A stretch of DNA of 52,396 nt from a virus. The stretch covers positions 1 through 52,396 of IMG/VR virus record IMGVR_UViG_3300046692_000123. One strand, given 5' to 3'. How positions within the stretch are numbered: the first letter of the stretch is position 1; each line of letters opens with the position of its first letter. Below the pieces are notes generated by a model. It was not told the origin of the DNA. It ran no database searches and saw only the letters and a list, made by a program, of their open reading frames with translations. Made by a program: the position numbers and the translations under genes. Below are positions 6,789 to 51,987 of this stretch, one piece after another.

Positions 6789-6804
6789 GTCCCGTGCAAG
6801 GGAC
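6789..6804. promoter_or_regulatory. Dispersed 16-bp operator S1
   Basis: GTCCCGTGCAAGGGAC: 6-bp arms (with flanking A/T 7 bp) around a TGCA-containing centre. It lies 22 bp upstream of the ATG at 6766 on the minus strand and only three bases from a second palindrome (6808-6821). It belongs to the genome-wide family described in the findings. Confidence 0.65.
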
Positions 6805-7607: not shown

Positions 7608-7846
7608 ACGTGCATCCTCTCGGTGGCGCTGCAAAGGCGGGAGACGCGAGCACTTCGGGCCGCCGCGAGACTGCTGTTCATCTGGCTAACTTCTTCGTAA
7701 CCAATGTCCCCGCTCCAAAGTGCGTAGGAGACAAAGCCCTGCAGGTAATTCAGTTCCGACTCGCTGCCAACCAGGTCGCCGGCGGGCATGGCGTGGATCT
7801 TTTTCAATCGTTCATCGAAAACCGCTCTCGCTGTTGAGTTGAACAT
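7604..7846 (-). CDS. Small hypothetical protein, 80 aa
   Basis: It begins MFNSTARAVFDERLKKIHAM with a GAGGG ribosome site. It is mostly helical with no recognised motif. About 45 bp separate it from the upstream gene, and that gap carries an operator-like sequence (7861-7876), so expression may restart here. Confidence 0.55.
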   Translation of the reverse strand: MFNSTARAVFDERLKKIHAMPAGDLVGSESELNYLQGFVSYALWSGDIGYEEVSQMNSSLAAARSARVSRLCSATERMHV

Positions 7847-7860
7847 TTCAGTTTCCCTCG

Positions 7861-7876
7861 GTGACGTGGAAGAGAC
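7861..7876. promoter_or_regulatory. Asymmetric operator variant upstream of the 80-aa gene
   Basis: GTGACGTGGAAGAGAC differs by one base from the reverse complement of 9683-9698. It shares the AAGRGAC half-site with the main 16-bp palindrome family. It sits in the short gap upstream of the gene starting at 7846. Confidence 0.45.
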
Positions 7877-7891
7877 CGCTAATTTCGTGCT

Positions 7892-8086
7892 TTAAAGGCG
7901 GCTGTGATGGCGGAAGGTGCGAGCCTGGCCGCTGCCTGGAATACGCTGGCGCGCTTGGCGTGCAACTCTTTCGCTCGGGTAGGTGGCAGATCCGCCCATC
8001 TTCCCGGTGACGAACAGCCCGCGAAGGCTGATCACGTTCATTTCAAAGTCCTCGCCCTGAAGGGCCATCCCTGTTTCGCTGTTCAT
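7892..8086 (-). CDS. First gene of the leftward operon, 64 aa, unknown
   Basis: Start at 8086 with an AGGGGTG ribosome site. An internal ATG (MNVISLRGLFVTGKMGG) is an alternative start. The C-terminus is very basic (RQARQRIPGSGQARTFRHH), like RNA- or DNA-binding peptides. Its place at the head of the leftward operon is that of lambda N, but no N-type motif can be claimed. Confidence 0.45.
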   Translation of the reverse strand: MNSETGMALQGEDFEMNVISLRGLFVTGKMGGSATYPSERVARQARQRIPGSGQARTFRHHSRL

Positions 8087-8171
8087 GCGCTTGCACCCCT
8101 GCTTGCTGTGGTTAGTTGATTTCCCGCTGCCGACTCATTGAATCGGCACTGGTGAAATGGTCCAGGCCGCG

Positions 8172-8264
8172 CTACTGGCGACCGGCCTGGATTGTTGCGT
8201 CATCGGTGTTGCCGGTTGCCCGCTGCTGATTGCAGGGCCTGGCGCGTCTGTCATAGGTTGGCAT
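8172..8264 (-). CDS. Possible 30-aa basic peptide
   Basis: ATG 8264 is preceded by AGGAAG at a good distance and reads MPTYDRRARPCNQQRA; the frame can also start at 8279. It lies in the leader of the leftward operon. Its short length and lack of family make it doubtful, and it could equally be chance. Confidence 0.2.
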   Translation of the reverse strand: MPTYDRRARPCNQQRATGNTDDATIQAGRQ

Positions 8265-8376
8265 CGGGGCTTCCTGCATCCAGCTCGATCAGCGTTGCTG
8301 GATGGTCATAGGTCAATACAACATGCGGCGTACAGCCCCTGGCGCCCGGTTAAGTAGGCGCGCCGCATGAGGTCCG

Positions 8377-8405
8377 GCGCCCCTCATAGCCGAAGCTCGG
8401 GGCGC
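8377..8405 (-). ncRNA. Stem-loop with UUCG cap in the control region
   Basis: On the minus strand GCGCCCC pairs with GGGGCGC. Inside, AGC-UUCG-GCU forms a capped inner stem. A second stem with ACCG/CGGU arms lies upstream near 8430-8450. This could be a leader structure, an antisense RNA or a terminator without a T-tract. I cannot assign it to a known RNA family. Confidence 0.35.
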
Positions 8406-8495
8406 TAATTCGTTACAGTCCGTCAAGCTACCGAGGCCGGTACAGCTATGCTCAGGGAGGTTCCTACCTATGAACATGCCAGCGGACTTTCCCAC

Positions 8496-8525
8496 TTGAC
8501 GGTTGTGTTGCGCAGGTTGTGTAAA
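8496..8525 (+). promoter_or_regulatory. Rightward promoter candidate upstream of operator S2
   Basis: TTGACG, 18 bases, TGTAAA. The expected start point falls just before the 16-bp operator at 8541-8556, so a bound protein would block early elongation or initiation. It would transcribe the cro-like gene through a leader of about 190 nt. Confidence 0.45.
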
Positions 8526-8540
8526 GAGCGATTCGTTCTG

Positions 8541-8556
8541 GTCTCTTGCAAGGGAC
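8541..8556. promoter_or_regulatory. Dispersed 16-bp operator S2
   Basis: GTCTCTTGCAAGGGAC, a near-perfect palindrome directly downstream of the promoter candidate at 8496-8525. A second partial site lies about 90 bp further on (8634-8650: two GGGACT half-sites in direct orientation). Confidence 0.65.
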
Positions 8557-8633
8557 CGTCTCGATGGATTGAAAGGTAACTCAAGGTTGCGGGCCTGTAA
8601 AGTCCTAGCCGTGAAATAATTTTTAATTTGCCG

Positions 8634-8650
8634 GGGACTTTAAAGGGACT
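8634..8650. promoter_or_regulatory. Tandem half-sites of the operator family
   Basis: GGGACT occurs twice about ten bases apart, ending in AAAGGGACT. These are half-sites of the 16-bp family in direct orientation, placed about 20 bp upstream of a promoter candidate (TTGAAG, 17 bases, TACCAT at 8669-8697). Confidence 0.35.
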
Positions 8651-8725: not shown

Positions 8726-8929
8726 ATGCAAGGTGTTCCGCTAAAGCAATTGGTTGCAGAGCTTGGCCCGGCCAAGGTAGGAAAGATGCTCGGTGTAAGT
8801 CATCAAGGAATAACGAAGGCGGTAGAGGCTGGGAGAGAAATTCTCATCACCGTGCTACCGGACGGAAAGGCAAAAGGGACAGAGCTTAGCGACTTCCCGA
8901 AAGCAAAGAAGAAAGCAGCACCAGACTGA
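8726..8929 (+). CDS. cro: Cro-like DNA-binding protein
   Basis: A 67-aa protein starting MQGVPLKQLVAELGPAKV. It aligns along its length with lambda Cro: helix-turn-helix (VGKMLGVSHQGITKAVEAG), then the beta-rich dimer arm (REILITVLPDG) and a Lys-rich tail. ATG 8726 is chosen over the longer frame because GGGGGAG lies seven bases upstream. It is the first gene of the rightward early operon, as in lambda. It should bind operators in the control region; no partner CI is seen. Confidence 0.75.
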   Translation: MQGVPLKQLVAELGPAKVGKMLGVSHQGITKAVEAGREILITVLPDGKAKGTELSDFPKAKKKAAPD

Positions 8930-8953: not shown

Positions 8954-9157
8954 ATGGCATACGTACCAGAAGAACTGATGCACGAAAAACAGATTAAGGT
9001 TCGACTCGTAGACAGCGAGTATGACGAGTGGAAAGAAATGGCTCACAAGGAAGGACAACTGCACAGCGTAATGGCTAGAATCGCCATGCGGGCCATTCTC
9101 GAAGAGTACCGCAGGACCGGTGAGCTGCCTGAGTTCATCGCCAAACAGCGCGCATAA
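8954..9157 (+). CDS. Small RHH/Arc-like regulator, 67 aa
   Basis: KQIKVRLVDSEYDEWKEMA followed by two helices (VMARIAMRAILEEYRR) has the strand-helix-helix plan of Arc-type repressors. A GGGG ribosome site precedes the ATG. It lies directly downstream of the cro-like gene, so it could be CII-like in timing, but its target is unknown. Confidence 0.55.
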   Translation: MAYVPEELMHEKQIKVRLVDSEYDEWKEMAHKEGQLHSVMARIAMRAILEEYRRTGELPEFIAKQRA

Positions 9158-10314: not shown

Positions 10315-10518
10315 ATGACGCTCGAACAGTTCAAGGCAATCGCAACGCTGATCAGCGCCAGGGGTGGCGTAACAGAGCAGGGCGCCATGCTCGTTCTGGT
10401 TGATGGCATGGAGCCGAAAGAGGCCGCCGAATCTCTAGGCGTCCCGGTGCAGACGGTTCAGACCGGTATGCGTCGTTTCAAGAGAGCTCTGGAGTTGGCG
10501 AAAACAGCAACCCAGTAA
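10315..10518 (+). CDS. TrfB/KorA-like helix-turn-helix regulator, 67 aa
   Basis: LEQFKAIATLIS, GAMLVLVDGMEPKEAAESLG and VPVQTVQTGMRRFKRALELA follow the pattern of the KorA/TrfB DNA-binding domain of IncP plasmids, including the VLVDG turn before the HTH. Plasmid KorA acts on many dispersed palindromic operators. A 16-bp operator of the phage family lies 39 bp downstream of this gene, making it one candidate for the protein that binds the network. The family call is moderate. Confidence 0.6.
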   Translation: MTLEQFKAIATLISARGGVTEQGAMLVLVDGMEPKEAAESLGVPVQTVQTGMRRFKRALELAKTATQ

Positions 10519-10642: not shown

Positions 10643-10723
10643 ATGACATACGCAATTGAGTGCGCAAGTATCTATTCAACTAAAGGGGTTGAATCCAATG
10701 CCATTGGGAGAGCTCCCCTATGA
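10643..10723 (+). CDS. 26-aa leader peptide coupled to the replication gene
   Basis: ATG 10643 follows GAGGGAA. The product reads MTYAIECASIYSTKG, and its TGA overlaps the ATG of the initiator gene (ATGA at 10720-10723). Its coupling suggests that translating it sets initiator expression. Confidence 0.5.
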   Translation: MTYAIECASIYSTKGVESNAIGRAPL

Positions 10724-11649
10724 GCATGGAACTGATGGTCAAGGCCATGAAGGCTCGCGTCGGTAGTCCTCTGCGCAAGCTTGTGCTGATCAAGCTGGCC
10801 GATAACGCAAACGACATGGGCGAATGCTGGCCGTCCTACCAGCACATTGCTGACCAGTGCGAAATGAGCCGTCGCTCAGTGATGTCCCACATCGAAACCC
10901 TGTGCAAGGGCGGTCTCGTTCGCAAGGAAATTCGGAAGGGTGGGCCGAAAGGCAACTCATCAAACATCTACGTCCTGATGCTTTCCGATGGTGCAAAGCT
11001 TTCACTACCCCCTAGTGAACCTCCTGCACCAGGTGGTGAATCTCCTGCACTAGGTAGTGAAAATGCTGCACCACCTAGTGAAAATGCTGCACTAGGGGGT
11101 AGTGAAGGATCTGCACCCAGAACCAGTCACTCTTTTGAATCAGTCAGTGAACCAGTCAGTGAACCATTGCAGCCCGCCGCTGACGCGACAGGCATGCCGG
11201 AATCGAAGGTTGTGGCTTTAGTCGAGGTCATACAGCCCCGCATTGAAATCCCTGCAGACATGCCTGGACCAAAAGACCAGGACTGCAAAACCTTCAAGGC
11301 CTGGGCCAACTACGCCTTCGCCTACCGTAAGCGCTATCAGGCGTGGCCGGTGTGGAATGCCAAGGTCGCCGGACAAGTTGGTCAACTGGTTAACCGCCTG
11401 GGTGCCGAGATTGCCCACCACGTCGCGGCCTACTACGTTTCGATCAACGACGCCCGCCTGATCAACGACTGCCATTCGCTGAACAACCTGCTGGCCAAGG
11501 CTGAGGCCTACCACACGCAATGGGCCACCGGTCGCCAGATGAACGGCCGCACCGCCCGCCAGATGGAAGACACGCAAGCCAACATCAACGCAGCGCAGGA
11601 AGCCGCCCGCAACATCCTGGGGCAAGGAGAGCGAAATGCTTTCCTCTGA
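10720..11649 (+). CDS. Replication initiator protein with N-terminal winged helix
   Basis: A 309-aa protein. Residues 15-90 form a winged HTH (CWPSYQHIADQCEMSRRSV), as in phage O-like replisome organisers. A Pro/Ser/Glu linker follows, made of 7-residue repeats encoded by 21-bp iterons (11012-11120). The C-terminal part (about 180-309) is helical. As in lambda O, the origin seems to lie within the gene. The next gene overlaps it by 14 bases and probably encodes its partner. Confidence 0.75.
   Translation: MSMELMVKAMKARVGSPLRKLVLIKLADNANDMGECWPSYQHIADQCEMSRRSVMSHIETLCKGGLVRKEIRKGGPKGNSSNIYVLMLSDGAKLSLPPSEPPAPGGESPALGSENAAPPSENAALGGSEGSAPRTSHSFESVSEPVSEPLQPAADATGMPESKVVALVEVIQPRIEIPADMPGPKDQDCKTFKAWANYAFAYRKRYQAWPVWNAKVAGQVGQLVNRLGAEIAHHVAAYYVSINDARLINDCHSLNNLLAKAEAYHTQWATGRQMNGRTARQMEDTQANINAAQEAARNILGQGERNAFL
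11012..11120. repeat. Five 21-bp iterons, probable origin of replication
   Basis: Units start at 11012, 11033, 11054, 11075 and 11099 and share GTGAA-N5-CTGCAC. The first four are exactly 21 bp apart; the fifth follows after a 3-bp insertion. They encode repeated residues in the initiator linker. A region with TCTTTTGAATC and two CAGTCAGTGAAC copies follows. Lambda ori has this same plan: iterons and AT-rich DNA within gene O. Confidence 0.65.
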
Positions 11650-12415
11650 ACAAATTGCGCAGCTCGCAGGCGCTATTTGCGCGACCGCCGAGACCCTGGG
11701 TCAAACGGTGAGCGCTGGCGCGGCGAAGATGATGGCCGAAGATCTGGCTGGCTATGCCCTTGAACACATTCGCAGCGCCTTGCAGGCCTGTCGCCGAGAG
11801 TTACCAGGAAAGCTCACGCTGTCCGCCATCCTCCAGCGCATTCAGGCCGAGGACGGCCGGCCGGGCAAGGATGAGGCATGGGCAATCGCTCTGGCCTCAA
11901 GCGATGAATTCGAAACCGTTGTGATGACGGATGAAATCCAGGTCGCACTGTCTGCTGCCCGCCCGGTGCTCGATGCCGGCGATAAGATCGGAGCGCGCAT
12001 GGCGTTCATGAGCGCCTACGAGCGTCTGCTGATCAACGCCCGTGCCGAGCTGAAGCCGGTCAACTGGCATATGTCGATCGGCTTCGATGCCGCCCGCCGG
12101 GTTGCCGCCGTGACTGCCGCCGTGCAGATGCAGCGAATCCCCCGGGATCATGGGCAAATGTATCTGGCCGACCTTTCGCATGTGCCAATTACCAACGACG
12201 GGCGCGCTATTGCGGGCCTGCTGACCGGCGATGTCGTGGAGCCCAGTCCGAAGGTGCGCCAGAAGCTGAAAGTCCTCAAGGAGGGCATGCAGGCGATGAG
12301 CAAGGCCAGCGAAGAAGAACGGACAGAAATGAAGATCGCAGCGGCAAGCGATCTGGCCGAGCGGCGCGCGCTGCTCATCAAGCAGGCGGAACAACTCAAG
12401 GGGCTGACGGTATGA
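11636..12415 (+). CDS. Replication accessory protein (lambda P position), 259 aa
   Basis: A helical protein, MLSSEQIAQLAGAICATAE at the start, with RIPRDHGQMYLADLSHVP in the centre and a charged helical C-terminus. No Walker motif is present, so it is not a DnaC-type ATPase. Its overlap with the initiator gene suggests it works with it, perhaps as helicase loader or adaptor. The role rests on position. Confidence 0.5.
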   Translation: MLSSEQIAQLAGAICATAETLGQTVSAGAAKMMAEDLAGYALEHIRSALQACRRELPGKLTLSAILQRIQAEDGRPGKDEAWAIALASSDEFETVVMTDEIQVALSAARPVLDAGDKIGARMAFMSAYERLLINARAELKPVNWHMSIGFDAARRVAAVTAAVQMQRIPRDHGQMYLADLSHVPITNDGRAIAGLLTGDVVEPSPKVRQKLKVLKEGMQAMSKASEEERTEMKIAAASDLAERRALLIKQAEQLKGLTV

Positions 12416-13814: not shown

Positions 13815-14041
13815 TCTGTGGCCTGAGCGACGTGCCGGCGATCCTCGGTGCGCTGACAGTCATCGTCTGCGCGCTGATGCTGGGCTGGAGCTTTGGCAGT
13901 GTCAGGGCGAGTGCCCGGCATCGAGCAGATATCAAGTCTGCGCTGCGCCAGCTCGATCACATGAATGGGCAGATGGCCACGGCCAGCCGGGTGATCGACA
14001 AGCTTCAGGAAATGGCCGAGCAGAGCGCCGGCCGGCAGTGA
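13811..14041 (+). CDS. Small membrane protein, 76 aa
   Basis: One hydrophobic segment (VPAILGALTVIVCALMLGW, residues 8-26) is followed by a charged helical cytoplasmic part. Coupled by ATGA to the Ead-like gene. Last rightward gene before the inverted partition cassette. Confidence 0.6.
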   Translation: MICGLSDVPAILGALTVIVCALMLGWSFGSVRASARHRADIKSALRQLDHMNGQMATASRVIDKLQEMAEQSAGRQ

Positions 14042-14097
14042 GTACCAGGCGCACAGTGAGTCGCATACTCACCGTGCGCCCAGTCATTACCGTGAGT
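14038..14097. repeat. GTGAGT/ACTCAC cluster downstream of the partition genes
   Basis: GTGAGT occurs at 14038, 14056 and 14092, and ACTCAC at 14067. GTGAGT-CGCAT-ACTCAC (14056-14072) is an inverted repeat within a larger hairpin (14048-14080, 14-bp stem with one mismatch). Two GTGAGT copies are 18 bp apart. This is a candidate centromere-like site and may also end transcription between the converging genes. Confidence 0.5.
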
Positions 14098-14305
14098 TTT
14101 TGGCAATGTACTCGTCGATAAACCGCTGAATCTCCGTCGTCATGTCCGACTCGTTGCGCATGCAGGCCCGGCGGAACCGGTCGTGCTTATCGGCATCGAG
14201 GCGCACGTTCAGTCGCTTCTCTTCCGCGACTGGCTTGCTGGCCTGGGCCAGGATCTTCGGCGCCCTGTCGGCGACCTTGCTTGGTGCTGTGGTGAGTAGT
14301 GCCAT
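14087..14305 (-). CDS. ParG/CopG-like ribbon-helix-helix protein, 72 aa
   Basis: A flexible basic N-terminus (about 30 residues) is followed by RLNVRLDADKHDRFRRAC and EIQRFIDEYI, a strand-helix-helix fold. The second gene after parA in a minus-strand pair, two bases apart, it is the likely centromere-binding partner that also represses the pair. TP228 ParG has the same plan: disordered tail plus RHH. Confidence 0.7.
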   Translation of the reverse strand: MALLTTAPSKVADRAPKILAQASKPVAEEKRLNVRLDADKHDRFRRACMRNESDMTTEIQRFIDEYIAKNSR

Positions 14306-14307
14306 GA

Positions 14308-14916
14308 TCAGGCCTCCAATAGTTTCTTGACAGCTTCAGCGAATCGCAGCGACTCCAGGCGTATTGCACTGTCGCCGCTTCTCGTTGGGGTTTTCCCTCT
14401 GGCGATGGCTGTCGGGTATCCGATCCGGTCGCACAGGGGCACGCTGACAACGGGCAGTTCGTAGCCATACAGCGCCTCGGCGATATCCCGGCCGAGCAGC
14501 GTGTTCTGATCCAGTCGGTTGACGAACAGTGCGGCGATGAACTCGGGACGATGCGCCAGGTGCGCCTTCATCAGCTCGATTGAGTCGGCGGCTGCCCAAA
14601 TGTCAAAGATGCTCGGCGCGCACGGCAGCAGTGCCATGTCCAGGTAGGGCAGCGCATCCGCTGACAGCTCCCCCTTTGTATCGATCACCGCATAGTCAAA
14701 CCCCGACAGCCCCTTCAGGTCTGACAGGCGCTCGGCGGTGAATATCTCGAGCGTGTTTGGCAGATTCGCAATCTCCACCCACCGGCTGACGCTGCCTTGC
14801 GGATCGGTATCGATCAGGGCAACGCGGTGTTTCTGAGCCAGCGCCCCGGCCAGGGTGACCGCGCTGGTTGACTTGCCAGCCCCGCCCTTCTGCGTCCATA
14901 GCCCGATCTTCTTCAT
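14308..14916 (-). CDS. parA: ParA/ParF-family partition ATPase
   Basis: A 202-aa protein with the deviant Walker A KGGAGKST (residues 10-17), IDTDPQGS (switch I region, about 36-43) and VIDTKG near residue 77 (Walker B area, ending in Lys rather than the usual Pro-Pro). It lacks the N-terminal HTH of large ParA proteins, so it resembles the small ParF/type Ib class. It runs against its neighbours, so the cassette appears to be a separate module. Starts 14931 and 14949 are possible. It could segregate an extrachromosomal prophage. Confidence 0.8.
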   Translation of the reverse strand: MKKIGLWTQKGGAGKSTSAVTLAGALAQKHRVALIDTDPQGSVSRWVEIANLPNTLEIFTAERLSDLKGLSGFDYAVIDTKGELSADALPYLDMALLPCAPSIFDIWAAADSIELMKAHLAHRPEFIAALFVNRLDQNTLLGRDIAEALYGYELPVVSVPLCDRIGYPTAIARGKTPTRSGDSAIRLESLRFAEAVKKLLEA

Positions 14917-14932
14917 GAGTACAGTGCCCATC

Positions 14933-14949
14933 GTGAGTATTTGACTCAC
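14933..14949. promoter_or_regulatory. GTGAGT-N5-ACTCAC operator upstream of parA
   Basis: A perfect 6-5-6 inverted repeat, the same form as 14056-14072 at the other end of the cassette. It lies 16 bp before the preferred parA start, where RHH partner proteins bind their operator. GAGT also recurs at 14917. Confidence 0.55.
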
Positions 14950-14975
14950 AGATTACACGACTGCGCGAAATCCGC

Positions 14976-15005
14976 TTGTGTATTCCGCGATTGTCGCGCT
15001 ATAGT
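14976..15005 (+). promoter_or_regulatory. Rightward promoter overlapping operator S4
   Basis: TTGTGT, 18 bases, TATAGT. The last two bases of the -10 box are the first two of the 16-bp operator, so a bound repressor would block this promoter. It would drive the HTH gene at 15067 and the nin-like region. Confidence 0.55.
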
Positions 15006-15030
15006 CCCTACACAGGGACCAGCAAGGGAC
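15004..15030. promoter_or_regulatory. Dispersed 16-bp operator S4 plus half-site
   Basis: GTCCCTACACAGGGAC (15004-15019) is followed five bases later by the half-site AAGGGAC (15024-15030). It overlaps a promoter candidate and lies between the divergent parA and HTH genes, about 55 bp from the GTGAGT operator. Confidence 0.7.
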
Positions 15031-15066
15031 CACAACCAATCAGGGGTGATACGAGATGGCGATTCC

Positions 15067-15273
15067 ATGAGGCTTGATCCGAAGGCGCTAAAAACTGACC
15101 CGGCCTACATCCGAAGCCTGGTCGAGCAAAGCGGCATGAGCCAGAAGCAGGCCGCCGCATCCATCGGTGTCGGTCAGCGCACGTTGGTTGACTGGCTCGG
15201 CGGCAAGATCAAGTGGTCCTACCCGGCGCAGTACGCGCTGGAGTGTCTTGTTAAATACGGGGTGAAAAAGTGA
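15067..15273 (+). CDS. Small helix-turn-helix protein, 68 aa
   Basis: TDPAYIRSLVEQSGMSQKQAA and IGVGQRTLVDWL form an HTH; the tail reads YPAQYALECLVKYG. A paralogue with the same plan is at 49033-49275. An upstream GTG (15043) is an alternative start. Being the first gene after the S4-controlled promoter, it is a candidate regulator. Confidence 0.65.
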   Translation: MRLDPKALKTDPAYIRSLVEQSGMSQKQAAASIGVGQRTLVDWLGGKIKWSYPAQYALECLVKYGVKK

Positions 15274-15872
15274 TGAGCACAATTGATTGGAGCAAGGCGC
15301 CGGAAGGCACCACGCACTTCGGGCCAAAGCATGATTTTCTCGTAGAGAACTGGTTCAAGAGAGATGAGTGCGGCTGGTCTATTTGGGAGTGCGCTCGCTG
15401 GGCGGCATGTCGTGGCGGCCTGCAGAAGCTACGCGAGGACACGATGGTCCGGCGTCCTCCGCAGAAGCCGTGGGCCGTCGAAGGCCTGCCACCAGTTGGG
15501 ACTGTGTGCGAGTTCGCAGGTGGAACGCCATGCCCGGAAGATCCCTTCGACAAGGATTTGAAGGTAGGCATGAAAGTAACAATCATCGCTCACTTCAAGT
15601 GCGGCGACTTTACGCTGGCGGCTTTTACCTTTGACCCTAAAAATCAAGATCGCGGAATGGTGCAAGTTGAACAGGGTAACTTCGGTTGCTTCCGCCCAAT
15701 CCGCACGCCCGAGCAGATCGCAGCGGAAGAGCGCGAGAAAGCACGCGATGAAGTTCTGAATGCCATGGCGGAAAAAATGGCTATCGAGAAGAACGAAACC
15801 CTTTGGCAACATCGTCTGCAGGTAGTTGGCGAAATGCTGGACATGGGCTACCGCAAGCAGGTGATGCCATGA
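15273..15872 (+). CDS. Phage hypothetical protein, 199 aa
   Basis: Coupled by TGATG to the HTH gene. It contains LPPVGTVCEF and CFRPIRTPEQIAAEEREKA, segments typical of a modular phage family of unknown function, and a helical C-terminus. Confidence 0.65.
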   Translation: MSTIDWSKAPEGTTHFGPKHDFLVENWFKRDECGWSIWECARWAACRGGLQKLREDTMVRRPPQKPWAVEGLPPVGTVCEFAGGTPCPEDPFDKDLKVGMKVTIIAHFKCGDFTLAAFTFDPKNQDRGMVQVEQGNFGCFRPIRTPEQIAAEEREKARDEVLNAMAEKMAIEKNETLWQHRLQVVGEMLDMGYRKQVMP

Positions 15873-16681
15873 CCGATAAAACGATTTGCCGCGATGACGG
15901 ACGCTGCGAGTACGCGATCCAGTCCGGCGCCGAAGAGAATGGTCGTTGCCCGAATGGCAAGTGCGCGATGCCTGCCTCGGCACCTGGAACTGGTAGCGAT
16001 GTCCTCGACTGCATCCTGGGCGTTGGCGGCTTCGCAAGCTTCGGCCCTCTGGATGCACAACCCGCCGCCCACCTGACCATCCCCGGCGCGCTGGAGTGGG
16101 ATGGTGATAATGGTACTCACGGTGCGGACGGTGAGTCGTGTGCTCATGGTGAGTCAGCTGCTGCCATCGCCACCCTGAAATCGCTCGGCTACACCCATAA
16201 CGGCGGCACCCACTGGAAGCCTCCGGTTGGCCAGAAGCCGGACTTCGACCTGATCGACTCACTGCGCGCCCAGCTGGCCAACACCGAACAATCGCGCCGC
16301 TCGTTCTTCGACTTGAGCCAGGATCTGGAGAAGAGGCTGGCCGAGCGGGATGCGCTGCTGCGTTCGAAGTCGGGCGACCTCATCCAGTACGCGGCACGAC
16401 TACTTGGCGCCCCGCTGCGAGAACTGAACGGCCTCATTGACGAGGGAGCAAGAATGACCCGCCCAAGGGTTGAGGCTGCCGTCGACTTCGCGGATAGCCA
16501 TATGAAGGACGTAGCCGTCCAGATTCGCCATATCGCTGACGCACTGTCCGCCATCACCAAGCCCGCCAAGCCCAAGGCCTGCGCCGCCTGCGACGGCTGG
16601 GGAACCATCTCGACGGGAATCGACGAGGCGCCATCGACCAACTGCAAAAAATGCGACGGAACCGGGAAGGTGGCGCCATGA
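15869..16681 (+). CDS. Hypothetical protein with C-terminal zinc-finger pairs, 270 aa
   Basis: Start MTDKTICRDDGRC at 15869 overlaps the upstream stop. A helical central part (residues about 130-190) is followed by CAACDGWG and CKKCDGTG, DnaJ-like CxxCxGxG zinc-finger repeats. The first 40 residues are also Cys-rich. The DNA for residues 83-96 carries a GTGAGT/ACTCAC cluster. Function unknown. Confidence 0.6.
   Translation: MTDKTICRDDGRCEYAIQSGAEENGRCPNGKCAMPASAPGTGSDVLDCILGVGGFASFGPLDAQPAAHLTIPGALEWDGDNGTHGADGESCAHGESAAAIATLKSLGYTHNGGTHWKPPVGQKPDFDLIDSLRAQLANTEQSRRSFFDLSQDLEKRLAERDALLRSKSGDLIQYAARLLGAPLRELNGLIDEGARMTRPRVEAAVDFADSHMKDVAVQIRHIADALSAITKPAKPKACAACDGWGTISTGIDEAPSTNCKKCDGTGKVAP
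16115..16154. repeat. Third GTGAGT/ACTCAC cluster, inside a gene
   Basis: ACTCAC at 16115 and GTGAGT at 16131 and 16149; the last two are 18 bp apart as in the 14038-14061 pair. The flank ACTCACGGTGCG resembles ACTCACCGTGCG at 14067. This could be an outlying partition site. Confidence 0.35.
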
Positions 16682-37992: not shown

Positions 37993-38577
37993 ATGGCTAT
38001 CGCATGGCCGGCATCGCTGTTCCCGTCTGAAATGACGTGGGGCATCGTGAACAACAGCAGGTCCTTCACCTCAACGCTCTCCAATGCTCAGCAGATTGCT
38101 GGATATCCAGGCGCCTATTGGCAGTGCACGCTGACCTTTGGCTTGCTGACCAGGCTGCAGGAGCGCGAGCTGTCTGCATTTTTAGGTCGGCTTGATGGGA
38201 TGTTCGGGACCTTCAATCTTCCGGCCTTCACTCGCACGCGCTCCGACAATATAGGGGCGCTGGCGGTGGTGACTGGAAATGCGCAGGCGCGCAACATGCT
38301 GGTATCTGGCGCAACACCTGGCGCGCCCATCTTCAAAATGGGCGACTACATCACGGTGGCCGGGGAGATGTTCGAGGTGACCGATGCGGTTTCCTCAAAT
38401 GCCTCCGGCCAGGCCGTTGTCCCGCTGAACAAGCGGATCCGCAAGACGCTGACGCCCGGCGCTGCCATCGAGTACCGCAACCCGTATTCGGAAATGCGCA
38501 TGACCTCCGACACCTGGTCGATGGCTGTTCGCCCGGTTATTGCGAGCGGCAACTACCAGTTCAGGGAGGCTTTCTGA
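37993..38577 (+). CDS. Distal/minor tail protein, 194 aa
   Basis: SLFPSEMTWGIVNNSRSF, RLDGMFGTFNLPAF and TSDTWSMAVRPVIASGNYQF. This resembles minor tail proteins placed after the tape measure in siphoviruses that lack lambda M. Coupled to the next gene by a one-base overlap. Confidence 0.7.
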   Translation: MAIAWPASLFPSEMTWGIVNNSRSFTSTLSNAQQIAGYPGAYWQCTLTFGLLTRLQERELSAFLGRLDGMFGTFNLPAFTRTRSDNIGALAVVTGNAQARNMLVSGATPGAPIFKMGDYITVAGEMFEVTDAVSSNASGQAVVPLNKRIRKTLTPGAAIEYRNPYSEMRMTSDTWSMAVRPVIASGNYQFREAF

Positions 38578-47342: not shown

Positions 47343-47377
47343 TGCTCACCCTTCCATTCTTATCTGTAGTTTTCCAT

Positions 47378-47398
47378 CCGGGGGATTTAAACCCCCGG
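47378..47398. terminator. Hairpin in the leftward block
   Basis: CCGGGGG-ATTTAAA-CCCCCGG, a perfect 7-bp stem in the 145-bp gap between two minus-strand genes. No T-tract; possibly a leader structure for the gene starting at 47342. Confidence 0.4.
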
Positions 47399-47465
47399 TC
47401 GGTCGTTGTATTCCGTGGCCTGTAGCGGTGTGGTAGCTGAAAAGCTGCTGAAACCGCAATTAGGC

Positions 47466-47491
47466 GTGACTAATAGTCCCTTTCTAGTCAC
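47466..47491. promoter_or_regulatory. Asymmetric operator variant within GTGACTA/TAGTCAC dyad
   Basis: GTGACTA-N12-TAGTCAC encloses AGTCCCTT. The 16-mer GTCCCTTTCTAGTCAC (47476-47491) aligns with the asymmetric operators at 7861 and 9683. It overlaps the 3' end of the methyltransferase gene and precedes the 173-aa gene. Confidence 0.45.
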
Positions 47492-47985
47492 CCGTTTTTT
47501 TCGGCGCTGACGGCGCGCTTCATGAAGGTGATCCAGTGGGTATTTCCGCGCTTGCCTGACTTGTGGCCAAACAGGGGCTTTTCGTCGGTCAGGGCCAGCA
47601 GCTCACTTACAGCCACCTGAATTTCATTCCACTTGAAGATCAGAAACCCTTCAGGCTCCAGCACTCGAAAGCATTCGGCAAAGCCTTTTCGGATGTCGTC
47701 GCGCCAGTCGCTGGTCAGTACGCCGTATTTTGCACGCATCCAGCTGTCGACTCCGGCCCGGGTCAAGTGAGGCGGATCGAACACGACCATTCGGAACGTG
47801 CCGCTATCGAACGGGAGCTGGCGAAAGTCCATCAGCACATCGGGCTCAACCTTCAGCACGCGACCATCACAAAGCAGGTGATTTTCGTCGCGGATGTCGC
47901 CGAACAGGGCGCGCTGGTCGTCCTTGTCGAACCACATCATCCGACTGGCGCTGCATGGGTCGAGAACTTTTGCCGCTGCACTCAT
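47488..47985 (-). CDS. Class I SAM methyltransferase with DPPH motif
   Basis: A 165-aa protein: VLDPCSASRMMWFDKDD, FGDIRDENHLL, then VVFDPPHLTRAG (DPPY-like catalytic motif) and a final HWITFMKR. DPP[YFWH] enzymes methylate exocyclic amino groups of adenine or cytosine. With the TGT-like gene it might modify phage DNA, but the substrate is not certain. Coupled to the upstream gene by ATGA. Confidence 0.75.
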   Translation of the reverse strand: MSAAAKVLDPCSASRMMWFDKDDQRALFGDIRDENHLLCDGRVLKVEPDVLMDFRQLPFDSGTFRMVVFDPPHLTRAGVDSWMRAKYGVLTSDWRDDIRKGFAECFRVLEPEGFLIFKWNEIQVAVSELLALTDEKPLFGHKSGKRGNTHWITFMKRAVSAEKNG

Positions 47986-49759: not shown

Positions 49760-49788
49760 ACTATAGGAACATTGTTCCTACTTTGCAA
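49760..49788 (-). promoter_or_regulatory. Strong leftward promoter with palindromic operator
   Basis: On the minus strand TTGCAA, 17 bases, TATAGT. The spacer holds TAGGAACATTGTTCCTA (49764-49780), a 17-bp perfect palindrome with 8-bp arms. It lies over the last codons of the integrase and drives the 74-aa, 58-aa, HTH and following genes. Binding would block the promoter directly. Confidence 0.75.
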
Positions 49789-50950
49789 GAGCCTGAGCTG
49801 GATATTTTTCAGGGCTGCCAAACATCGCCGCCGCCTTATCCCCCGACGAGTCGCCATCAGTTGGAATCCAGCGCCCGTATACCCGCGCAATCATCAACCA
49901 TGAAGCGTGGCCCATCTGCTTGGCCACCCACATAGGATGCTCGCCCGCGCTCAGCATCATGGATGCGTAAGTGTGCCGGGTCTGGTACGGGTTCCGGTAG
50001 CGCACGCCTGCCCGGCGGATGGTCGGCGTCCAGAGCGACTTGCGCAGTTCCTGGTCGCCGTTGAATGCCCGGTTATGCCTCGGGTCATGGAAAACGGCCT
50101 TCCCTTCTATATAAGTGTGCTCGCGCTGGGCCTTCAGCGCCTCGAACGACATGGGCAGCAGGCGCACGCTACGCACCCCGGCCGCCGTCTTCGGCGTCTC
50201 TGCCTCGCTGGCTGCCGCCGTCAGCCCCCGCGACACCCTCACTTCCCCTCGGTGCCAGTCAATGTCGCCCCACTCCAGCGCGACCAGCTCCGACGTGCGC
50301 AGGCCGGTCCAGAATGCGAACTGCAGAAGGTTCCGATACTGCCCGGTCGCCGCCGCCAGAATGGCCCGCTGCTCGTCCGGGCTGAATGGGTCGATCTCGT
50401 CCTCGGTGCGCGGCTTGCCCTTCACTGAATACGTCCAGCCGGCCAGTGGGTTCGATTCGATCAGCTCGTCGTCCACGGCATCGCTCAGGGCCGAGCGCAG
50501 GCACGATTGCACGTTGGCCAGCCGCTTGTTCGTCGCCGACATCTTGGCCATGGCCGCCCTGACCTCTTTGCGCGTGACCGATGCCAGCGCCAGACTGCCC
50601 AGCGCCGGTACCAGAACCCCCGCAACGATCTTGCGGTAACCGTCCAGCGTGGACGCCTTCAGGATGCCGGCCTTGCGCTCAAGCCATTCATCCAGGTACT
50701 GGCCCAGCGGAACCTGTCCGGATTGGCCGACAGCCGACACCGCCCGCTTCGACCGAGGAAACGCCTCGGCATATTCAAACTCGCCCCGGTGAATCGCCAG
50801 ATCAATCGACGCCTTCTGCTGCTGCGCCCGCTTCAGGTTGGCCGGCGTAGGCTCCAGCGGCAGGCGCTCCCGGCACTGCTTGCCGTCGACCATAAAGCTG
50901 ATCTCGATACTGCTTTTCGATGCCGCACGCACCCCGCGCTTCGCAGCCAT
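49778..50950 (-). CDS. int: Tyrosine-recombinase integrase
   Basis: A 390-aa phage integrase. An N-terminal arm-binding region (EISFMVDGKQCRERLPLEP; DUF3596-like) is followed by the core-binding domain (about 80-170) and the catalytic domain. Catalytic residues: R218 in TGLRTSE, K254, R325 in YQTRHTYAS (the first His of HxxR is Tyr), H348 in MGHAS and Y358 in VYGRWI. It integrates and excises the prophage. attP was not located; it is probably in the flanking 60-80 bp. Confidence 0.92.
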   Translation of the reverse strand: MAAKRGVRAASKSSIEISFMVDGKQCRERLPLEPTPANLKRAQQQKASIDLAIHRGEFEYAEAFPRSKRAVSAVGQSGQVPLGQYLDEWLERKAGILKASTLDGYRKIVAGVLVPALGSLALASVTRKEVRAAMAKMSATNKRLANVQSCLRSALSDAVDDELIESNPLAGWTYSVKGKPRTEDEIDPFSPDEQRAILAAATGQYRNLLQFAFWTGLRTSELVALEWGDIDWHRGEVRVSRGLTAAASEAETPKTAAGVRSVRLLPMSFEALKAQREHTYIEGKAVFHDPRHNRAFNGDQELRKSLWTPTIRRAGVRYRNPYQTRHTYASMMLSAGEHPMWVAKQMGHASWLMIARVYGRWIPTDGDSSGDKAAAMFGSPEKYPAQALAK

Positions 50951-51027: not shown

Positions 51028-51987
51028 TTATGCCAGCGGAGCGTAGACTTCTCCGCGCCGCTCGGCAGATGCCTTGCGATATGTTTCGTTGGTGTACGGG
51101 GCGTCAGGCTCGCGACGAATGAAGGTCATCGAGTAGGTGGCGCCTTTCGCTCGGTGGGTACTGGCGCAGTACTTCTCGATCAGGTACTGGGCGTCGTGCT
51201 TGTCGCCTTTCTCTGCTCGGCTGCCGGTGCCGATCGTTCCGCCTTTCCACGAACCCTTCTCCGGACCGGTCTCGCCGTCAAAGGCGATGTCCAGCTCGAT
51301 GAAAGTGCGAGTAGGGCGCAACGCGCCGAAGTACTTCTTCACCCAGCCAGTGCCGATACGGTAAACCCTCTTTTCCATATGGCAGTAGGCGCGGATCTCT
51401 TGCCCGTCATAATCCTTCAGCAGGAAGACGTAACGCGGCATCGCATCCTTTATCGCCGACTTCTCCTTGTAATCAAGGCAGACACCTTTGCCCTTTTCGA
51501 TATGCTCAGTGCCGTCCGCGTCGCATATGGCATTCAGTACAAGATCAAATTCACGCCAAGGGAAAGAAAAGTAACGGGACTTCGTGGTTCGAGAATCCCA
51601 AGTGCTCGGGCCGAAACTGGTGTGCAGTCCGTGTGTCTGCATATGAAAGCCGAACTTTCGGGCGTGGTACTCGAAGTAGTTGAGGTGCCCGAATTGCTCC
51701 AGTCTCCGCGCCGCGTCTTCAGGGCTTAGCGTGGTGAAGGCATGCTTCTGCGCCCATGGCTTGATGATGCGAGGAATCTTGATCCAGGCTGAATATTTCC
51801 AGACTTGGATGATGAGCTTGTTTCCCGGATAGTCGCCGTTGTCGCCAGAATCAAGGGTGATGCCGAACACGCTGTCGCGCTGACCCTTGTAGTAAAAGTC
51901 GATGAAGTTGAGGATCACGAGCTTGTCATGCCATGGGTTGGCCCGGAAAACATTGCGGGACCACCAAGCTTTGATGATTTCGAACAT
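51028..51987 (-). CDS. Conserved phage hypothetical protein, 319 aa
   Basis: FDLVLNAICDADGTEHIEKG, TGWVKKYFGALRPTRTFIEL and GPEKGSWKGGTIGTG match a conserved large phage protein of unknown function. N-terminal segment MFEIIKAWWSRNVFRANPW. It lies upstream of int in the leftward block. Confidence 0.7.
   Translation of the reverse strand: MFEIIKAWWSRNVFRANPWHDKLVILNFIDFYYKGQRDSVFGITLDSGDNGDYPGNKLIIQVWKYSAWIKIPRIIKPWAQKHAFTTLSPEDAARRLEQFGHLNYFEYHARKFGFHMQTHGLHTSFGPSTWDSRTTKSRYFSFPWREFDLVLNAICDADGTEHIEKGKGVCLDYKEKSAIKDAMPRYVFLLKDYDGQEIRAYCHMEKRVYRIGTGWVKKYFGALRPTRTFIELDIAFDGETGPEKGSWKGGTIGTGSRAEKGDKHDAQYLIEKYCASTHRAKGATYSMTFIRREPDAPYTNETYRKASAERRGEVYAPLA

Follow-up and report, generated by a model that had tools for sequence, protein, structure and literature searches.

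A ParF-ParG-type partition cassette with unusually arranged sites in a clade of phages that also carries a conserved integrase

The window analysed here, 52,396 nt in length, is a virus genome assembled as a circle with an exact terminal repeat of 127 bp, and its source is probably a Pseudomonas phage. Head, tail and lysis genes are complete (terminase, portal, capsid, tape measure, endolysin). A search against Rfam gave no match, and a tRNA-Sec prediction at 38300-38390 was distrusted since it sits among tail genes. Between the replication and the nin-type genes lies a cassette of two genes, accompanied by clusters of short ACTC/GAGT boxes:
14308-14916, minus strand: parA, encoding a ParF-type Walker ATPase of 202 aa; alternative start at 14931
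14087-14305, minus strand: parG, encoding a predicted ribbon-helix-helix centromere-binding protein of 72 aa; family match, adjoins parA
14917-14949, minus strand: putative parA operator, with the dyad GTGAGTCAAATACTCAC at 14933-14949 and a box at 14917; spacing 18 and 9 bp
14038-14097, no strand assigned: downstream site cluster, with GTGAGT at 14038, a nested dyad/hairpin at 14048-14080 and GTGAGT at 14092, at the parG 3' end
14292-14297, plus strand: GTGAGT box within the start of parG, found at +634 in many relatives
15869-16681, plus strand: array-containing gene, without a match in Pfam; likeness to an Ea22-type phage protein by eye
16103-16156, plus strand: distal box array, candidate centromere (parS/parH), with boxes at 16115, 16133 and 16151; in frame, encoding GDNGTHGADGESCAHGES

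A preliminary description had noticed a ParA with the motif KGGAGKST and a ribbon-helix-helix partner running opposite to their neighbours, and had read them as a partition cassette. Both genes are indeed on the minus strand between plus-strand genes, and family comparisons bear the reading out. The parG product matches the Pfam family ParG at 5.5e-8, above the family cut-off, and the ParG structure PDB 1p94 at 3.5e-6. The parA product, with its deviant Walker A motif KGGAGKST and a length of about 202 aa, is of the short ParF type; its best solved relatives are PDB 5u1g (8e-17) and ParF of TP228 (4dzz, 1e-16), and it also matches CbiA, VirC1 and AAA_31 in Pfam and the ParA-like partition protein in PHROG. 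Judged by these matches, the cassette is a ParF/ParG-type partition locus. Translation of parA probably starts at 14916 (MKKIGLWT), inside the operator region, rather than at 14931. Consensus scans returned no sigma-70 promoter at parA and neither promoter nor terminator in 14000-15100. An AlphaFold model of the ParG monomer was of low confidence (pLDDT 61) and uninformative.

Scans of viral contigs recovered parA from 24 further metagenomic contigs, 71-97% identical, giving a clade set of 25 contigs (the window and 24 relatives) and a long set of 12 (the window and eleven relatives). Gene content is strongly mosaic across the 25, most genes being present in some and absent in others; only parA and parG (25/25) and a neighbouring helix-turn-helix (HTH) gene are practically universal, the latter lacking only from one contig that starts beside parA (24/25). 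parA has a dN/dS of 0.16 (24 sequences) and the ParG strand RLNVR is invariant in 25 sequences. Five of the 12 long contigs are circular assemblies, each with a different start point, and exact terminal repeats of 127-131 bp are found in the window and four relatives. Circular assembly is compatible with a plasmid, with circularly permuted virion DNA or with replicating phage DNA, and is not specific to any of them.

The 17-bp dyads reported at the two ends of the cassette, GTGAGTCGCATACTCAC (14056-14072) and GTGAGTATTTGACTCAC (14933-14949), are exact at these positions. They share their arms, so that "the same dyad" holds to this extent, but the 5-bp spacer differs. Likewise, the sites do flank the cassette, but simple bracketing is not the right picture, as there is a third cluster, a conserved one, at a distance of 1.2 kb (16103-16156), which the preliminary description had missed. 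No exact copy of the dyad arose in 400 first-order Markov simulations of the window, and with up to two mismatches five sites are present against 1.3 expected, a number reached in 0 of 100 shuffles. GTGAGT alone is not enriched across the whole window (19 against 20.4 expected) and was dropped as a signal by itself; it is the clustering that stands out. The further copies said to lie near the cassette are there, seven hexamers in 14030-14960 against 0.34 expected, and three more occur in 16090-16160 against 0.025 expected. Across the 12 long contigs the density of hexamers is 2.05 per kb up to a distance of 2.5 kb from parA and 0.20 per kb elsewhere, and exact dyads number 18 near parA versus one far from it, the lone far dyad belonging to the same cassette, split by contig ends. 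The operator dyad is exact, spacer included, in 22/24 relatives, its position relative to the 14931 start being -18 throughout. The hairpin of the downstream cluster has a folding energy of -22.8 kcal/mol (z -5.5), and the box at the parG end is conserved among relatives, with variable DNA past it. Of the 127 spacings between boxes, 126 are multiples of 9 bp. As a separate observation, the clusters at 14038-14080 and 16103-16156 both border DNA that is unrelated between relatives; box clusters at such borders may aid recombination between phages.

The distal array, located 1.2 kb in front of parA in the window and 0.7-2.1 kb across relatives, is present in 22/25 contigs, that is in every contig reaching that far; the remaining three stop no more than 1.1 kb from parA on that side. 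By ungapped comparison its core is 95% identical between contigs, versus 25-30%, the random level, in the left flank. A question arises, is it kept as DNA or as peptide? All 22 contigs have the array in one and the same open frame, where it gives much the same peptides, of the GDNGTHGADGES type, at the point where the protein switches from conserved to variable, its C-terminal side differing between relatives. These facts would suit a conserved glycine-rich linker at a domain-swap point of the 15869-16681 product, with the likeness to ParG boxes incidental. However, codon choice within the array is biased: glycine is GGT in 79/83 codons versus 164/698 in the remainder of the same genes, and threonine is ACT in 23/23 versus 44/293, counts that come from related, not independent, sequences, so that P values for the bias are overstated. 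The same hexamers on the same 9-bp lattice also occur at the non-coding parA operator, which supports a constraint at the DNA level, and such sites are tenfold rarer elsewhere. We therefore regard the linker explanation as very improbable. As 9 bp equal three codons, an array on this lattice can sit within a gene with its frame unshifted. Among the sites of the cassette the distal array appears the strongest, and the likeliest candidate for the centromere.

ParG of TP228 is said to recognise tetramers with an ACTC core, and the preliminary description had linked the phage boxes to this. Plasmid relatives support the link: the nearest outside the clade are the parFG loci of Pseudomonas syringae and P. 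cerasi plasmids (ParA 61%, ParG 51-53%), and plasmid ParGs with the strand R[LV]NV[NR] have ACTC/GAGT boxes at parF, the enrichment alone being not significant for some plasmids, whereas two plasmid ParGs with other strands (RIQVIL, KLQMNI) have boxes at chance level. This correlation, with its two negatives, fits recognition of the boxes by ParG. No relative above 61% identity was found among plasmids, and a plasmid state has thus never been seen for the clade itself. A scan of genome contigs by exact peptide patterns, which detects close relatives only, found no relative of the clade ParA.

Replication and lysogeny control were considered next to the following features:
8726-8929, plus strand: Cro (PF09048, 8.5e-12), in 10/12 long contigs
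10720-12415, plus strand: lambda O-like replication initiator (10720-11649) with its partner (11636-12415); PHROG 391 at 1.1e-56 and PHROG 6028 at 5.7e-103
15004-15019, no strand assigned: dyad GTCCCTNNNNAGGGAC in the interval from parA to the HTH gene; the window has seven such dispersed copies in all
15067-15273, plus strand: small HTH protein, divergent from parA, candidate regulator (HTH_3, 5.1e-5)

The genes for replication are of lambda type rather than plasmid type and vary from one relative to another. In lambda-like phages cI lies to the left of cro; here, 7846-8650 to the left of cro holds no reading frame of repressor size, and no S24-type repressor was found in the 12 long contigs, with positive controls. 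Copies of GTCCCTNNNNAGGGAC with at most one mismatch are at 6789, 8541, 10558, 15004, 17965, 19203 and 22297, and each long relative has 5-9 of them versus 0-1 for a control dyad. This dispersal resembles that of the operators of the P1 or mycobacteriophage L5 repressors, and the HTH gene divergent from parA may, together with the GTCCCTNNNNAGGGAC dyads, belong to lysogeny control. Plasmids of the lambda-dv type need no more than cro, O and P for their replication, and we propose that a partition locus would suit a replicon of this kind. Two further small proteins are conserved in the clade, one at 8954-9157, adjoining Cro and by eye Arc-type ribbon-helix-helix-like, and an HTH protein at 10315-10518 with weak likeness to plasmid KorA/TrfB and to sigma-70 region 4.

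The integrase mentioned in the preliminary description alongside the partition cassette is present and under purifying selection:
49778-50950, minus strand: tyrosine integrase (PF00589, 1.7e-15; Arm-DNA-bind_2, 2e-20)
47375-47501, minus strand: attP, with a conserved arm and the core GGGGGTTTAAATCCCCC at 47380-47396

Next to the integrase, at 51028-51987, lies a protein of the CBASS inhibitor Acb3 family (PF25187, 1e-40). The window and each of its eleven long relatives carry the integrase, which is 84-98% identical in ten of the relatives and cut by a contig end in the eleventh; it has a dN/dS of 0.116 and no stops in 33 sequences. The attP arm is about 97% conserved in the clade; conservation stops at the core (47380), past which the DNA differs. 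The core is similar to the att sites that related prophages have at ssrA: integrases up to 73% identical belong to prophages in Pseudomonas isolates, and ten genomes with integrases 55-73% identical each contain two copies of GGGGGTTCAAATCCCCC, one of which is the 3' end of the tmRNA gene in 10/10 (ARAGORN), which identifies ssrA as the attachment site of these prophages. By sequence, the clade attP derives from the 3' end of ssrA (tmRNA), with its core changed and the tmRNA-restoring part lost. The window core reads TTTAAAT for the TTCAAAT of ssrA, a T for C, and is followed in the right arm by GGATGG instead of CGGCTCCACCA, the ssrA-restoring 3' end being absent from attP; the CGGCTCCACCA end is lost in all core-bearing clade members except the contig L209. 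Given the mismatch and this loss, integration at ssrA would be expected to leave tmRNA without its 3' end. L209/L293 were considered as an integrated form, as CGGCTCCACCA after the core suggested a junction with the host; further on, however, tail and lysis proteins of a phage are encoded, and the L209 site is a phage attP that has kept the ancestral end, and no host junction.

Does the phage, then, simply integrate? Partition genes of certain integrative conjugative elements are believed to act on the excised circle, and the clade could comprise integrating temperate phages whose prophage is normally chromosomal, the cassette serving only the excised or newly infecting circle. The constancy and constraint of integrase and attP arm, as well as the isolate prophages with related integrases sitting at ssrA, speak for such a course; the altered core with its lost CGGCTCCACCA, and the consequence for tmRNA, speak against it. 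Moreover, no integrated clade member was detected in about 85,000 genomes by exact peptide patterns, which find close relatives only, nor in 399 Pseudomonas genomes, and the exact attP core is found in a single one of 299 Pseudomonas genomes, where its surroundings are unrelated (L374, in which the DNA around the core has no phage match). We consider ordinary integration unlikely, though of all alternatives it carries the most weight.

The explanation we favour, and hold to be fairly probable, is that the locus is a ParF-ParG-type partition cassette and that the prophage exists for some or all of the time as a low-copy circular plasmid. Dimers of ParG would bind the ACTC/GAGT boxes arranged on the 9-bp lattice; at the parA promoter this would repress the operon, and at the downstream cluster, but chiefly at the distal array, it would build the partition complex. 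The ATP-bound ParF-like ATPase on the nucleoid would capture and move these complexes, so that each daughter cell receives a copy. The lysogen would be extrachromosomal, replicating in the lambda manner (Cro, O) and lacking an S24-type repressor; the integrase and its altered attP would bring about integration rarely or serve another role. Supporting this explanation are the family matches, the conserved operator and array, the codon bias in the array, the concentration of boxes around parA, the lattice, the match between ParG strand and boxes in plasmids, the near-universal presence of parA, parG and the HTH gene in otherwise mosaic contigs, the circles, the missing S24-type repressor and the missing integrated copy; weakening it are the ambiguity of circular assembly, the lambda-like replication genes, the lack of plasmid relatives above 61%, the missing sigma-70 promoter at parA and the constrained integrase, which suggests that recombination at attP still matters. 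Established are the protein family, the sites and their conservation, the lattice and the fact that an integrase always accompanies the cassette. Binding, autoregulation and segregation by the cassette are what we infer by analogy with TP228, and the extrachromosomal lysogen with a rare or different role of the integrase is suggested more tentatively. The earlier proposal of a phage-plasmid is plausible and has been strengthened by the cassette in every relative, the circular assemblies and the lack of an S24-type repressor; the double life that it envisaged, both integrated and as a plasmid, is unproven.

The ParF- and ParG-like proteins could instead act mainly in regulation, exclusion or positioning during lytic growth, for instance by par-based incompatibility, and not in prophage segregation. 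Boxes and ParG strand are practically shared clade-wide, so that mutual incompatibility is expected, several members come from one metagenome (3300044878), and a place between replication and nin-type genes is a usual one for cargo. Yet ATPase, adaptor, operator and a separate conserved array make up the full requirement for partition, and regulation alone leaves the distal array and the conserved ATPase unexplained; we judge such a role improbable. A bolder extension of the favoured explanation, which we rate as doubtful, is that the clade has shifted from integration to plasmid life and yet retained its integrase, attP having diverged until it ceased to match ssrA, integrase and attP now resolving circle dimers or using another site, and ParF-ParG segregating the circle from an in-frame centromere that doubles as a hinge for the exchange of gene halves among phages. 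In all, an unusual site layout is present in a real ParF-ParG-type cassette, in a clade with both partition genes and a conserved integrase, and plasmid maintenance is the most likely use of the cassette.

Among known systems the closest in kind is ParF-ParG-parH of TP228, with which the phage locus shares a small ParA-type ATPase beside a ribbon-helix-helix protein matching Pfam ParG and 1p94, ACTC/GAGT boxes at the promoter, and the gene order parA then parG. ParG of TP228 has degenerate tetramer boxes as its binding sites, both at parH and at the operator; its tail stimulates ParF, and the substitution R19K impairs it (PMC7308502, PMC5389482). ParG tails in the clade are of two types, one with Arg or Lys at the arginine-finger position and one different, and the position is not clearly conserved; given that Lys stands there in some tails while R19K impairs TP228 ParG, we count this doubt against the favoured explanation. 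Unlike TP228, the phage locus is phage-borne and has boxes also behind parG and as an array within a coding gene; its boxes are at multiples of 9 bp, whereas those of plasmid relatives are mostly at 8 bp. The 9-bp spacing is a variant, about 8 bp being a detail of layout that is not required for membership of ParF-ParG. The contrast between the two layouts is a clean one for the study of ParG assembly on DNA, and a partition site within a reading frame is easily tested by recoding. The P. syringae and P. cerasi plasmids pHelC, p58T3 and pB26-2, closest outside the clade, have boxes before parA and behind parG as well; they are ordinary plasmids, two of the three looking conjugative by typing, with few boxes and mixed spacings of 8, 9 and 17 bp. 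The temperate Pseudomonas phages represented by isolate prophages share with the clade a related integrase (55-73%) and attP core and, in contrast to it, are integrated at ssrA with tmRNA restored.

With the phage-plasmids P1, N15, VP882 and phiHAP-1 and cluster A mycobacteriophages such as RedRock the clade has in common a phage genome with ParA-type partition genes. Phage matches of the ParA include VP882, VHML, phiHAP-1 and KS14, and, at the sensitivity applied, none of 50,697 phage records matched ParG. What usually identifies phage-plasmids is the presence of partition genes together with the absence of an integrase. An integrase is typically absent from them (PMC12977533), and in cluster A mycobacteriophages parABS stands in place of the integrase (PMC7157519), whereas the clade constantly has both. 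The glacial phage CY1_63_1964 is likewise a circular metagenomic phage with ParA, ParB and an integrase, for which both lifestyles were proposed (PMC4490671), so that the idea of a double life is not new; as described there, it is a single 80-kb genome of the ParB type, unlike the clade. That both features are constant in one clade suggests an overlooked lifestyle, in a group that current rules could misfile.
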